DNA of 59,967 bases from Candidatus Poribacteria bacterium (GTDB taxonomy: Bacteria > Poribacteria > WGA-4E > WGA-3G). Every line of letters begins with the position of its first letter. Within the stretch, counting starts at the first letter, position 1. The position numbers and the translations under genes are program-made. Shown in pieces: positions 8,206-13,918 of this stretch. The notes beneath the pieces are model-generated. The model saw nothing but the letters and a program-made list of their open reading frames with translations. It was not told the DNA's origin and ran no database searches. The stretch covers positions 1-59,967 of the forward strand of contig JAJECK010000055.1 of the NCBI GenBank assembly GCA_022822085.1, given 5' to 3'.

Positions 8206-8769
8206 TTAAAATCGAATTTGAAACAGTGGTATAACTATACCGATAGGAGGATCGTTTGCCCACATATTCAGTTGAGAGTTTGTAATGGATTCATGTGGGT
8301 GCAGAACATACGTTGAGATTGCGTGAACATTTACATGTGGACCTAAACTCGGTATTCCAGCTAACGTGCCATCTGGAGGCACTTCCTCCTCAGTAGGAGG
8401 TGTCGGTGGTTTTCTTCCTGGAATACTCGGCTCTGAACGATCTTCATTTCTGGTATGTAGCCAATCCCATATTCCAATAAAAAGGGATAATGTAACGGCA
8501 CTAATCCCCATCACTCTATAATTCTCCGGAGTCAATATTGGTGCAATCTTATTTTCCTGTATCATCTTAATTCCACGAACACCTAAATAACTATGGACTG
8601 CAGTAAATGGCAGTGAGCTTAATGTTACTATTTCAAAGCGACGAAGTGCACTTTCACTATAATCTTCGTGTTGTGTTTCTTGTTCTTGTTCTTGTGCTTG
8701 TAAATGAGGTACGACACCCAAAAATCCGATTAGAGTGATAACAAAAATAGTGATGTAAAATTTAAACAT
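8206..8769 (-). CDS. Unrecognised secreted or membrane protein with proline-rich segment
   Basis: I do not recognise a family. The 187-residue product has a good ribosome site (AAGGAG) and an N-terminal signal-like helix ending near the Ala-Gln of HLQAQEQ, then a Gln/Glu-rich patch. A central part contains two hydrophobic stretches (around residues 50-65 and 88-105). A Pro-rich linker (PGRKPPTPPTEEEVPPDG) precedes a C-terminus that ends in a Phe (FQIRF). The alternating C-terminal residues ending in F hint at outer-membrane association, but this is weak. It lies between lspA and fmt on the same strand. Confidence 0.6.
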   Translation of the reverse strand: MFKFYITIFVITLIGFLGVVPHLQAQEQEQETQHEDYSESALRRFEIVTLSSLPFTAVHSYLGVRGIKMIQENKIAPILTPENYRVMGISAVTLSLFIGIWDWLHTRNEDRSEPSIPGRKPPTPPTEEEVPPDGTLAGIPSLGPHVNVHAISTYVLHPHESITNSQLNMWANDPPIGIVIPLFQIRF

Positions 8770-8852: not shown

Positions 8853-9341
8853 TTAGTTTGCATTTTTTTGAATACGAAAGAGATAAACAATAAGCATACC
8901 CGCGCCGATACAGACAGAGATATCAGCAATATTAAATGTTGGCCAATACAGATTCTTGCTTGCTATCCCAAATTGAAGGAAATCGACTACCTCACCCAAA
9001 TAGATTCTGTCGATAAAATTTCCTACTGCGCCACCAAGAAGAAATCCTAATGAAATTTGCATCCATCGACTATGACTGAATCTAAACGAGTAGACCAATA
9101 TAAAAATTAAAGCAGCAATTGTAATTAGAACCAGTAGAGTCCGTTGGTCTGATAAGATTCCGAAAGCTGCGCCTGTGTTTCTGTCATGACGTAAGTTAAA
9201 AAAACCATCAATAATTGAAATACCGTTGCCTTTGGGAATGTACATCTGAACCATACGTTTAGTGATGATGTCAAGTACTAATGACGGAATTGCTACAATG
9301 ATTAATGGTAATACATTCTTTAGGTATTGATTTAGAGGCAT
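8853..9341 (-). CDS. lspA: Lipoprotein signal peptidase (signal peptidase II)
   Basis: Inner-membrane aspartyl protease that cleaves prolipoproteins before the lipidated Cys; 162 residues with four predicted transmembrane helices. Conserved boxes are present: RNTGAAFG (about 54-61), GNFIDR (108-112), VVDF with catalytic Asp120, and FNIAD with catalytic Asp140. Its expected substrates in this window include the lipoproteins at 961 and 2198. It starts 24 nt after the stop of the IleRS-like gene, keeping the ancient ileS-lspA adjacency. Confidence 0.95.
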   Translation of the reverse strand: MPLNQYLKNVLPLIIVAIPSLVLDIITKRMVQMYIPKGNGISIIDGFFNLRHDRNTGAAFGILSDQRTLLVLITIAALIFILVYSFRFSHSRWMQISLGFLLGGAVGNFIDRIYLGEVVDFLQFGIASKNLYWPTFNIADISVCIGAGMLIVYLFRIQKNAN

Positions 9342-9365: not shown

Positions 9366-11966
9366 TTATGTTTTTATTTTAACAGACTTCTTCAGTGATT
9401 CCCACTCATCAGTCGTATCAATTTCACTCATCAGTTGGATCAATTTCTTCATTTCATTAATAGGTGGAAAGTTGTACCACTTTTCTTCAAAAATACTCTT
9501 TGTAGTAGAAAACACCTCTGCGTTTAACTCTTCTGCTAAGTAAGGTAGTATAGGAGCTATCCGCTGAATCACGGCTTTTAAAATAGAAGTTAGTGCAATT
9601 TGCATAGAATCTGATTTGTCTGTTTTACATAAACCGAGATAAATGGATAGGTCTGTTTGACAAAATTCTAACAGCATAACCCAGATATTGTAAAACTCCC
9701 GCTTCTCATATACTTTTTCCACATCATTAATTAGTTGATGGGTTTTCAATATTGCAAGTACATCTTGTTTATTAAATTTGTCATAGAACTTCGTATGACA
9801 TCCATTTAGTATTTTTTGCTGCTTTTCCTTTTCAGTTTTTTTGAAACCAGATATGAACTCGGCAATCTCATACAATATCTCTTTAAGACTTTCATAATTT
9901 TGATAGTGTTTTTCTACTAAGTTTTTAATTTGTTCTGATCCATCGTTTTCAAGAGGTACTTGATGTATTTCAGGTGTAATAGAGAATAGCCTGATAATAT
10001 CCGCAGGATATTTATCAAATATATTGTCTTGTATCTCAGTTTCCCATACTACTTCATCAAGTTCATTTAGATTTAGGTGTTTAAATGGGTGACTCTCTTT
10101 AGAAGGTCTGCTGAGTTGAAGCGATACAGCCAATACGCTCAATTCACCTAACCATTTTATAAATGCAGTTCTTGGAACAAATACAACATTGATAGCTGTC
10201 TCAAGGGTTGATTTCTTAAAATCTGATATGTCAAGTGTTTGAAGTAAGTTGGCAAAGGAACTTTCTATGTAAGTAGATTCTTTTCGGAAATCCTTTGAAT
10301 GACAATTCATGCAAATTGCATCAGTGGGTAATAATTCTTCCACGCTGAGACGGAACCAATGTTCGGCCCCCCGTCTAATAGAGCTACGAACTGCCCGAAG
10401 TATCTTCTTATCTGTAATAAGGTGATTGCAGTTATCACATCTCAACACAGGCAGAGGAATGCCCCACTGTCTCTGTGATGAGATTTGCATATCAGACGCA
10501 TTCATCATTTCATTTTTTATGTCCTCCCGAATATCTTCATCATAATGTTCCCAATACTCTGGAGATGTTGTAACTTCGTCCGAAGCAACTTCAGATGAGA
10601 TGGAAAACGTCCAGTGTCGGTAAGGACGTAGAACAGAAACGCCGTTGCAGTGTTGACATTCAAGTTGCTCAATTTTTCGTTGTCGAGTTGTAATTAAACA
10701 TTCACGACTCTCTAACTCATCAGTGATAAATTGTATGGCATTATTTAAATACAATCCACAAAGTGTATCAGCATCTTCAGTAAATCTACCAGTTTCGTCA
10801 AAAATAGGCGTTGTGGATGTTGATGATTGAAACTTTGCATTGATTATGTTGCGAATATCAGGTAGCTGCTTAAATATAATATGACTAAGGGTATGATGTG
10901 CTGGATTTAGTGGAATGATGCCATCTTGCAGTTCTCTTTTTTCTGATGAATCTGACACTGTTTCTATAATTTTCTCTGGTATCATAAAAAAGGGAAGGTC
11001 AGTAAGTGAAAAAAGAGGGTGAGAAACGGTACAATTATTCAGCTGCTTTGTATTTAATTTTGCAAGAAGTTGAGGGGTATTTTTGTCTTTTTTGTTTGGT
11101 TTAACAAGGTGCTTCAGTTGTGGTTCTGCAAAGATTATAAATTGGTCTTCATATTCAGTGAGGTAAAATGTAGTACTCTCAAATATTCCTATACCAATGG
11201 TGCCAGCGATCTCCCAAAGTTGGTTTTGTGGCAAACGGATTGCAAAATATATCTCTCTTCCAAATTCTTCAAAACCACCGTTGAATGGGAATTTAACGTA
11301 AGTATATAGAACATTGTTAGAAACCGGGGTAACTGTTTTTCCTGTTTCCAATGGAGAAACACAATTTGGACACCAATGACTGAGTTTAAGTTCATCACGA
11401 AGATATTTCGTGTCCCTTAGTCTATCAAAGAAACTAAATAACTTTGTTTCATTACGTGCTTCTAATGTTTTGTCTGCAGAACTCCAATCTGCAAATATAC
11501 CAAGATTTTTGAATTTTTGTTGTTGAGATTTTAGATGTTCGCTATACAATTGACGACACTGTTTTCGAAAATTAATGATATTTCCAGATTTCTCTGTCTT
11601 ATTATCTTTTATAACACTTGCTTCAATGCTAAAAGGAAAGGTTTCCCAAAGAGGTGCATAAGCAACGGTATGTCCATGCATCATTTCATATTTTAAGAAT
11701 ACATCTTGAAATATCTTTCTCCGTAGTGTATCAACATTCAGTCTATGAACAGGCGTAGGCATTTCCCTTATGATATAAGTCGGTAACTCTGTCGTTTTTT
11801 CATCAACCTTATACACCTTGCGTTTTTCCCACAATTTGAGTGTATCGGCTTCACGCGATTTGTGTACGACTTTTTCTGTAGTAGCAGATAGTGGGTCTTC
11901 TATCTTAGATTTTCTGCTTGTTCGTTTTACAGCGGAGTTCTTAGTTGAAGTTTTTGTTTTTTTCAT
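9366..11966 (-). CDS. Degenerate isoleucyl-tRNA synthetase-like protein, catalytic motifs lost
   Basis: 866 uninterrupted codons align by eye with IleRS along the whole length. Retained are the post-HIGH segment ending in APLWETFPFSIE (about 103-115), a CPNC pair (199-202), an editing-domain remnant ending in DETGRFTED (about 390-398), SSQRQWGIPLPV (497-508, normally SRQRxWGxPIP), AEHWF...EELLP, a CMNC pair with FRKES (552-563), and DKYPADIIRLF (651-661). The HIGH site reads HRLN (74-77), the GSDQHRGWF region reads PRTAFIKWL, and KMSKS is absent. It should not aminoacylate. It sits between yggT and lspA, where ileS normally lies, so a working IleRS must be elsewhere. Lys/Ser-rich N-terminal extension. 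Confidence 0.8.
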   Translation of the reverse strand: MKKTKTSTKNSAVKRTSRKSKIEDPLSATTEKVVHKSREADTLKLWEKRKVYKVDEKTTELPTYIIREMPTPVHRLNVDTLRRKIFQDVFLKYEMMHGHTVAYAPLWETFPFSIEASVIKDNKTEKSGNIINFRKQCRQLYSEHLKSQQQKFKNLGIFADWSSADKTLEARNETKLFSFFDRLRDTKYLRDELKLSHWCPNCVSPLETGKTVTPVSNNVLYTYVKFPFNGGFEEFGREIYFAIRLPQNQLWEIAGTIGIGIFESTTFYLTEYEDQFIIFAEPQLKHLVKPNKKDKNTPQLLAKLNTKQLNNCTVSHPLFSLTDLPFFMIPEKIIETVSDSSEKRELQDGIIPLNPAHHTLSHIIFKQLPDIRNIINAKFQSSTSTTPIFDETGRFTEDADTLCGLYLNNAIQFITDELESRECLITTRQRKIEQLECQHCNGVSVLRPYRHWTFSISSEVASDEVTTSPEYWEHYDEDIREDIKNEMMNASDMQISSQRQWGIPLPVLRCDNCNHLITDKKILRAVRSSIRRGAEHWFRLSVEELLPTDAICMNCHSKDFRKESTYIESSFANLLQTLDISDFKKSTLETAINVVFVPRTAFIKWLGELSVLAVSLQLSRPSKESHPFKHLNLNELDEVVWETEIQDNIFDKYPADIIRLFSITPEIHQVPLENDGSEQIKNLVEKHYQNYESLKEILYEIAEFISGFKKTEKEKQQKILNGCHTKFYDKFNKQDVLAILKTHQLINDVEKVYEKREFYNIWVMLLEFCQTDLSIYLGLCKTDKSDSMQIALTSILKAVIQRIAPILPYLAEELNAEVFSTTKSIFEEKWYNFPPINEMKKLIQLMSEIDTTDEWESLKKSVKIKT

Positions 11967-12047: not shown

Positions 12048-12314
12048 CTACATATTTAACAATTGGTTTATAATGTATAAGCCGAATAATAGCACCATCG
12101 GTGAAAAATCAATTCCAATATTCCTACTCATTGGTTGCATTATATTTCGGATTGGTTGTAAAACAGGATCAACGAATTGACCTGTCATCCTATAGATTTG
12201 TCGGATAGTAGTATTTTGTGTGCTAAGTGCAACCCAGGATAATATTACGTTTACAAAGACTATAAGAATGTATGCATCAATCAATCTGCTGAGAATTACT
12301 GCAAGTATATTCAT
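12048..12314 (-). CDS. yggT: YggT family membrane protein
   Basis: 88-residue integral membrane protein of the YggT/YlmG family, with two hydrophobic segments and the family middle RMTGQFVDPVLQPIRNIMQP. YggT-type proteins are linked to membrane organisation and osmotic tolerance, but no biochemical activity is firmly assigned. It follows proC by 21 nt and precedes the IleRS-like gene, matching the widespread yggS-proC-yggT-ileS-lspA neighbourhood. Confidence 0.88.
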   Translation of the reverse strand: MNILAVILSRLIDAYILIVFVNVILSWVALSTQNTTIRQIYRMTGQFVDPVLQPIRNIMQPMSRNIGIDFSPMVLLFGLYIINQLLNM

Positions 12315-12335: not shown

Positions 12336-13151
12336 TTAAACTGTATCAAGTTGTTTTGCCCGGTCAGTAGCGGCAATTATAGCTTCAGCAAGCGTTGCGC
12401 GGAGTCCTCCTTTTTCAAGTGCGTGGAGTCCAGCTGCTGTTGTTCCTCCGGGTGTTGTCACCCGGTTTTTGAGAATAGCAGGATGTTCTTGTGCTTCTAC
12501 CAACATCTTTGTAGCACCTAAGACTGTATGAGTAGCAAGAATTTGGGCTTGCTGCCGTGGTAAGCCGACATGGACTGCTGCATCAGCCAATGCTTCCACA
12601 AAAAGTGCAACATAAGCAGGTCCGCTTCCACTGACCCCAGTTACTGCATTCAGATGTACTTCATCCATTACTAATGTCGTTCCGCATGTGTTAAAGATCA
12701 TATCAGTAATGTTGAGATGGTAATCTTCCGCAGATGTACCAGGTGTCAAAACAGAAATTGCAGCTTGTACTGAAGCCGCTATATTTGGCATTACACGCAC
12801 AATCGGAGGAGGCGTATCAAAGTATGATTCAAGTGATTGTGTTCTGACTCCAGCTGCAATGCTAATCATCCATTGTGGTGGTGATAGCGTTGAAGCAACT
12901 TGCGGGAGAATATGAGGTATAGCCGCTGGTGGAACTGAACAGAAAATTACATTTGTCTTTAATATAAGTTCGTCAATACTTGATGCAGCGTTGACACCTT
13001 TTTCATCACAGAGTTGCCCAACAAGACTTTTGTCAAGGTCAGTTACCCAAATTTGTTGTGCTGGTAATAGGTGGTCTACTATACTTCTGACAATGATACC
13101 ACCCATTTTGCCAACACCAATAAAACCTACATTTATGTTCTCTACCACCAT
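12336..13151 (-). CDS. proC: Pyrroline-5-carboxylate reductase
   Basis: Last step of proline synthesis: NAD(P)H-dependent reduction of 1-pyrroline-5-carboxylate. The 271-residue product has an N-terminal Rossmann motif VGFIGVGKMGG, then CSVPPAAI, IVRVMPN in the middle, and the C-terminal dimer/substrate signature running from GSGPAYVALFVEALADA to TTPGGTTAAGLHALE. All are typical, so activity is expected. It lies 38 nt downstream of yggS and probably shares its transcript. Confidence 0.95.
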   Translation of the reverse strand: MVVENINVGFIGVGKMGGIIVRSIVDHLLPAQQIWVTDLDKSLVGQLCDEKGVNAASSIDELILKTNVIFCSVPPAAIPHILPQVASTLSPPQWMISIAAGVRTQSLESYFDTPPPIVRVMPNIAASVQAAISVLTPGTSAEDYHLNITDMIFNTCGTTLVMDEVHLNAVTGVSGSGPAYVALFVEALADAAVHVGLPRQQAQILATHTVLGATKMLVEAQEHPAILKNRVTTPGGTTAAGLHALEKGGLRATLAEAIIAATDRAKQLDTV

Positions 13152-13189: not shown

Positions 13190-13918
13190 CTATTCAGTAG
13201 AACTGAAAATTGCTCTACCTATTCTAACAATATTTGCCCCTTCTTCAATTGCAACTTCAAAGTCGTTTGTCATTCCCATAGAAAGGTATTCCATCGTTAT
13301 CTTTGGAAACCGCTTCGCCTTTATCTTTTCGGCTATAGTTCGCAACAGTGTAAATGCAGCACGGTTTTCCTTAGCTGAAGCATTTAACATTCCCATTGTC
13401 ATTAGCCCCTTTATACATATTCCGGGCTTTGACAAGGATTGCTCCAATAACTGATATACATCATTTGCATTTACACCGAATTTACTTTCTTCTCCAGTAG
13501 TGTTTATCTGAATTAAAATGTCCGCTTGTTGACATTTCATTTCTGCACGATGGGATATCTCCTCTATTAAACGCAAACTATCAACAGAATGTATCATATC
13601 AAACATGTCTAAAGCGGATTTAACTTTGTTTCTTTGAAGATGCCCAACAAGATGCCATTCACATGTATAATCGAGGGATATATTGTTATTTGATTTTGTT
13701 AATTTTGATTGAAGTTGATCGTATTTTTGTTGTGTTTCCTGCACTCGGTTTTCACCGATTACATGATGTCCAGTTGTAAGTAATGTTTGTATTTCTTCTA
13801 CTGTACGTCCTTTTGTTACAACGACAAGTTTAATTTCCTCTGCTGCGCGACCACTACGTTCTGCAGCTAAAACTATTCGTTCCTTTACTTTTGCAAGGTT
13901 TTCAGCAATCATGTTCAA
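13190..13918 (-). CDS. yggS: PLP homeostasis protein, YggS/PLPBP family
   Basis: Pyridoxal-phosphate-binding TIM-barrel protein that buffers free PLP and affects amino-acid and keto-acid pools; not known as a catalyst. Signatures: VVVTKGRT (PLP-binding Lys; the usual family text is AVSKT), IGENRVQE, WHLVGHLQRNK, IQINTTGEESKFG and YLSMGMTNDFEVAIEEGANIVRIG. The frame opens at a TTG (13918) with GAGGAAG 6 nt before it; the ATG two codons later (13912) is equally plausible. 240-242 residues, first gene of the yggS-proC-yggT run. Confidence 0.92.
   Translation of the reverse strand: MNMIAENLAKVKERIVLAAERSGRAAEEIKLVVVTKGRTVEEIQTLLTTGHHVIGENRVQETQQKYDQLQSKLTKSNNNISLDYTCEWHLVGHLQRNKVKSALDMFDMIHSVDSLRLIEEISHRAEMKCQQADILIQINTTGEESKFGVNANDVYQLLEQSLSKPGICIKGLMTMGMLNASAKENRAAFTLLRTIAEKIKAKRFPKITMEYLSMGMTNDFEVAIEEGANIVRIGRAIFSSTE

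Follow-up and report, generated by a model that had tools for sequence, protein, structure and literature searches.

Several aminoacyl-tRNA synthetase paralogues are known to have lost their activity or changed it (LeuRS-I, HisZ, SLIMP, PoxA, and, for IleRS, SbzA; PMC9437257, PMC6331615). LeuRS-I retains leucyl-adenylate formation and tRNA(Leu) binding (PMC9437257). In type 1 IleRS (IleRS1), the HXGH motif was kept in all 158 enzymes surveyed, and swapping it for GXHH was by itself enough to abolish activity; the same paper links the GXHH signature to mupirocin hyper-resistance (PMC10485003). The gene described here, pIleS, occupies the ileS locus of Candidatus Poribacteria. Judged by its sequence, its product is almost certainly a pseudo-synthetase.

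The stretch of DNA that was analyzed (the window) is 59,967 nucleotides long and comes from an assembly of 158 contigs and 5.63 Mb. pIleS lies at positions 9366–11966 of its minus strand, as do the parts of the protein and the named neighboring genes whose coordinates are given below. The reading frame starts with ATG and encodes 866 amino acids without a single internal stop, in agreement with an earlier note on this DNA. The position is also canonical for ileS, as that note had claimed: yggS (13190–13918), proC (12336–13151), and yggT (12048–12314) lie upstream, and lspA (8853–9341) downstream. Between lspA and fmt, a 187-residue protein (8206–8769) with no Pfam match is kept in nearly all Poribacteria. 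No RNA element in the window matched above Rfam gathering scores, and promoter-like sites were no more numerous there than in shuffled sequences. Pfam recognized the class I synthetase domain (PF00133, 94 bits) and Anticodon_1 (51 bits) in pIleS. The best NCBIfam model was TIGR00392 (ileS) at 181 bits, which falls short of the curated cut-off of 621.4; the proteins at L134 and L123 scored 296 and 246 bits against the same cut-off. The closest solved structure is the IleRS1 of Priestia megaterium. Together with the phylogeny, AlphaFold model, and fold comparison below, the frame and these matches mark the protein as an IleRS1 derivative.

In an alignment that also included 40 orthologues from Poribacteria and 13 canonical IleRS1, the columns of the HIGH motif read NVDT in the window protein (residues 77–80; 11727–11738). 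The earlier note had correctly seen that the motif was lost but had read its replacement as HRLN, which is residues 74–77. Its claim that KMSKS was lost also held, but the motif is not cleanly deleted; ELDEV stands in its place (residues 635–639; 10050–10064). GSDQHRGWF has become PRTAFIKWL (residues 598–606; 10149–10175), just as reported. DGPPYANG, DVWFDSG, TTPWT, and the editing residues H352 and D361 are replaced as well. Neither HIGH nor KMSKS was found in any orthologue whose sequence was read across the motif region. Of 260 columns that are invariant in IleRS1 (conserved in 92% or more of the sequences), pIleS orthologues keep 56, have fixed a different residue in 11, and have lost 193; a further 57 columns are newly fixed. 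Among the 11 refixed columns, H67R and D68E lie where IleRS1 has its ATP/isoleucine loop. Because these motifs are gone, and in light of the published HXGH data (PMC10485003), the sequence evidence for loss of activation activity in pIleS could hardly be stronger.

The zinc ribbons of the connective peptide are retained. Both halves of ribbon 1 (C199 and C202, 11361–11372; C437 and C440, 10647–10658) are present, as is ribbon 2 (C510, C513, C552, and C555), which lies with QRQWG in the CP1 base (10257–10661). The CP1 editing region (residues 206–435; 10662–11351) is predicted to fold, with TTPWT and H352/D361 lost; several members of the other families of the order retain the editing-loop H and D (e.g., GVRHLAPGHHPYD in L039). 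The stem and anticodon-binding helical bundle (residues 666–835; 9462–9971) has lost RKIRNT. No Pfam match to the C-terminal zinc finger (PF06827) was obtained in the window protein, and none follows the anticodon bundle. Since this finger is absent, the description of the protein as an IleRS from end to end, zinc cysteines included, stands for the two CP ribbons and not for the C terminus.

An AlphaFold2 model of the window protein, built from 54 aligned sequences, had a pLDDT of 84.6 and a pTM of 0.83, with low confidence for residues 1–34; the input alignment included canonical IleRS1 rows, so the model leans toward the IleRS1 fold. Foldseek and VIA-align matched it over its whole length to IleRS, with Z scores of 26–27 over ∼740 residues when compared with the S. 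aureus, H. pylori, and P. megaterium IleRS1. Structure prediction, which the earlier note had proposed as a check on the tRNA-binding and editing domains, gave a divided answer: the class Ia/IleRS fold is predicted, CP1 included, but the C-terminal domain of IleRS1 is missing and the editing residues are lost. By sequence and model, residues 1–36 (11859–11966) form a basic, disordered tail with 11 K+R against 3 D+E, which among the families checked is confined to that of the window. In one genus (L117 and L129) the tail reads MKKRGRP..K and resembles an AT-hook, which suggests nucleic acid contact. A check for the added positive charge that an RNA binder would show in its core came out negative: the core is no more basic than in IleRS1, and the anticodon half is more acidic than its IleRS1 counterpart.

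Codon maximum likelihood was used to estimate selection on pIleS. Pairwise omega ranged from 0.16 to 0.52, and omega = 1 was rejected in all 12 independent close pairs (likelihood ratio statistic 14–179); neighboring genes mostly gave 0.04–0.41 in close pairs. The comparison of orthologues suggested in the earlier note thus returned values below 1 throughout. Constraint differs between domains, whose limits were our own choice. When 19 pairs were pooled, dN/dS was 0.11 for the N-terminal Rossmann half, 0.15 for CP1 editing, 0.07 for the CP1 base with its zinc ribbon (the strictest part), 0.14 for the KMSKS half, 0.28 for the anticodon half, and 0.39 for the N-terminal tail. Seven pairs allowed comparison with IleRS2, the second IleRS, from the same genomes. 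The CP1 base/zinc region is nearly as constrained in pIleS (0.066) as in IleRS2 (0.054), whereas dN/dS of the anticodon half exceeds that of IleRS2 3.6-fold (0.288 versus 0.081). From this pattern, we conclude that selection maintains pIleS for some role located in the former catalytic and zinc core.

The second intact IleRS that had been predicted is present: the window's genome encodes an IleRS2 of 1073 amino acids with GVHH and KMSKSRGN, its motifs intact, alongside ValRS and LeuRS with intact motifs. Across the phylum, an IleRS above the TIGR00392 cut-off was detected in 75 of 85 genomes, and none of the Poribacterial IleRS seen was an intact type 1 enzyme. GVHH replaces HXGH in the catalytic IleRS2 of the window's genome (G000:C36, L002) and at L073, L074, L077, L078, and L169. 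This GXHH signature may be the reason that IleRS2 was able to replace IleRS1. Two IleRS2 copies occur in G016 (L170 in G016:C84 and L171 in G016:C74), an assembly with 4% contamination that is possibly mixed. Members of families f2, f4, and f7 carry another IleRS with AMHKS instead of KMSKS, which forms its own clade adjoining IleRS2 when put in the tree. The enzymes at L165, L166, L167, and L168 (G045, G036, G052, and G044) are about 1120–1190 residues long where complete, and MHKSWGN replaces KMSKS. Because members of f2, f4, and f7 carry this MHKSWGN type, the working IleRS seems to have been swapped once more inside the phylum.

In a quick IQ-TREE phylogeny, the pIleS orthologues formed one clade (SH-aLRT 100) that joined IleRS1 (SH-aLRT 95), apart from IleRS2, ValRS, and LeuRS; membership of the ValRS or LeuRS line is ruled out by this tree. 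pIleS branches are longer than those of IleRS2 from the same genomes, and long branches and uneven composition are a warning for the inner order of the tree, less so for its main split. An original ileS that lost catalysis, as first proposed from the window alone, is the best account of this grouping.

A profile search placed a pIleS orthologue in 78 of the 85 Poribacteria genomes, counted from the listed matches with a few assembly fragments included. It is missing from G011 (only 73% complete), G036, G038, G039, G050, G059 (only 61% complete), and G060. The order yggS-proC-yggT-pIleS-lspA is common to nearly all loci. In G036, G038, and G039, lspA directly follows yggT, a clean loss from which it follows that pIleS is dispensable in some lineages and not universally needed. 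These three loci (L181, L179, and L180, respectively) are all in families where the MHKS-type IleRS is found. Elsewhere the relatives have open frames, purifying selection, and kept synteny, which bears out the expectation that they would show no neutral decay. G061, on the deepest branch and outside the window's class, has a 470-residue fragment before lspA (L159) without KMSKS and GSDQHRGW that retains the C-terminal zinc finger (PF06827) and the IRNT motif. Because this fragment already lacks KMSKS, the loss of catalysis probably dates back to the origin of the phylum. A wider, alignment-based scan of 84,980 species genomes rested on two short peptide patterns, and its best 80 matches were looked at; a single-sequence scan of genome contigs had given no match. 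Apart from pIleS, these 80 comprised type 1 enzymes from other phyla, whose motifs are canonical except for one variant HIGH (HVGT) and a few variants of GSDQHRGW or KMSKS.

The loss of catalytic motifs, the intact frame under selection at a fixed locus, and a second enzyme at work together indicate that pIleS is very probably a repurposed, non-catalytic protein. In the sequence of events that we propose, pIleS would be the original, vertically inherited type 1 ileS of Poribacteria. IleRS2, with its GXHH active site, would have taken over tRNA(Ile) charging, after which pIleS could lose ATP/isoleucine activation and aminoacylation; the window's family would have lost the editing site as well. 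We infer this order, with the second IleRS first and the loss of catalysis after it. Instead of disappearing, the gene would have been retained for a non-catalytic protein that works by binding something through the CP1-base/zinc-ribbon core, a region under about the same selective stringency as its counterpart in the active enzyme. The basic N-terminal tail found in the window's family may provide a further contact, with nucleic acid. Taken as a whole, this account, of a former type 1 ileS replaced by IleRS2 and kept as a non-catalytic CP1/zinc-core binding protein, is the one we favor, with some reserve. On sequence evidence, a role as a binding protein is an even bet. The most likely partner would be a translation component, whether a further protein, the acceptor end of a tRNA, or some other RNA, but any particular partner is improbable when taken singly. 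A somewhat less than even chance attaches to a phylum-wide component made from a dead class Ia synthetase, whose rebuilt pocket and zinc core would serve new binding or sensing unrelated to tRNA(Ile) charging. A new enzymatic activity in the altered pocket would also be compatible with the sequence statistics.

The earlier note had put forward tRNA-Ile binding or sensing as the new role. In such a factor, the IleRS docking surface would deliver, protect, or sense uncharged tRNA, as in the inactive LeuRS-I. Descent from IleRS1 and the whole-length fold are in keeping with this, as is the CP base, which is the strictest part, keeps QRQWG, and in class Ia enzymes lies near the acceptor arm. The anticodon half, however, is the least constrained core domain, at 3.6 times the value of active IleRS2, and is more acidic than in IleRS1; RKIRNT is lost, and the C-terminal zinc finger persists in the deepest branch only. 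These losses and the relaxed anticodon half argue against reading or sensing of tRNA(Ile); anticodon recognition by pIleS is unlikely on this evidence, the role proposed in the note is not favored, and we regard the factor as a whole as improbable. Scarcely more probable, though a shade ahead, is a role like that of HisZ toward HisG, with pIleS as a regulatory or structural subunit of some other enzyme and a pocket that may sense isoleucine or a nucleotide. The 11 refixed columns, H67R and D68E among them, and the 57 newly fixed ones would fit such a pocket, but the locus offers no candidate partner, its neighbors being the ordinary ones of ileS. Moreover, pIleS persists beside two catalytic types of IleRS, so neither is an obligate partner; IleRS2 in particular is ruled out in that capacity because pIleS persists with the AMHKS-type enzyme.

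Editing in trans, in which the pIleS CP1 would hydrolyze mischarged Val-tRNA(Ile), could draw on a predicted and moderately constrained CP1 fold and on the H and D that several proteins from other families retain in the editing loop. We hold it very unlikely: neither the TTPWT threonines nor the editing H and D survive in the window's family. Gene position and whole fold are what an active IleRS with odd motifs would have, yet all three signature motifs are gone, the 75 genomes noted above have a separate IleRS, and GXHH alone kills IleRS1 (PMC10485003). We rejected this reading as having next to no chance. Slow decay of a functionless remnant is just as implausible: pIleS does evolve faster than several neighbors in many pairs and has been lost from three genomes, but its frames are open in dozens of genomes of several families, omega is well under 1 in each pair, and dN/dS of the CP base is 0.07, all of which contradicts a pseudogene. 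A mupirocin decoy was ruled out because the pocket residues are gone.

The favored reading, a former type 1 ileS kept as a non-catalytic binding protein, would make Poribacteria a replicated natural case in which an essential enzyme was replaced and its former self reused. Because pIleS recurs in about 80 genomes and has been lost in particular lineages, its function is open to comparative and biochemical tests. For annotation, the ileS-lspA gene order is no guarantee of an IleRS.

Compared with IleRS1 (S. aureus 1QU2/1QU3; P. megaterium 8C9E), pIleS shares origin, gene position, the Rossmann/CP1/zinc/anticodon architecture, and two CP zinc ribbons, but it lacks HIGH, KMSKS, GSDQHRGW, DGPPYANG, DVWFDSG, and RKIRNT, and the window protein lacks the C-terminal zinc finger. 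LeuRS-I of Sulfolobaceae is likewise a class Ia paralogue beside an active enzyme, with a disrupted editing domain and a divergent acidic C terminus, and it does not aminoacylate (PMC9437257), as its motifs lead us to expect of pIleS. It belongs to a different family and domain of life; in pIleS the adenylation motifs are gone and tRNA binding is doubtful. HisZ, a HisRS paralogue (PMC9437257), resembles pIleS in having a synthetase fold, no adenylation activity, and a different job, but HisZ is class II and acts with HisG in histidine synthesis, whereas the neighbors of pIleS offer no such partner. SbzA is IleRS-like and has a non-translational job, but it keeps HIGH and KMSKS slightly changed, charges weakly, and sits in an antibiotic gene cluster (PMC6331615). 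The class II synthetase paralogue of animal mitochondria is a regulator with a known partner; pIleS is class Ia and bacterial. The open-access literature, with subscription papers mostly outside our search, held no relevant paper on an IleRS pseudo-enzyme or a Poribacterial IleRS, in keeping with the earlier note's statement that none of this kind was known. None of LeuRS-I, HisZ, SLIMP, PoxA, and SbzA began as a phylum's own type 1 IleRS and became a pseudo-enzyme at the ileS locus. Most known synthetase-derived proteins are duplicates or single domains, or keep part of the chemistry; with pIleS, an entire phylum's own ileS, inherited vertically, has apparently become a pseudo-enzyme in place while IleRS2 does the charging.
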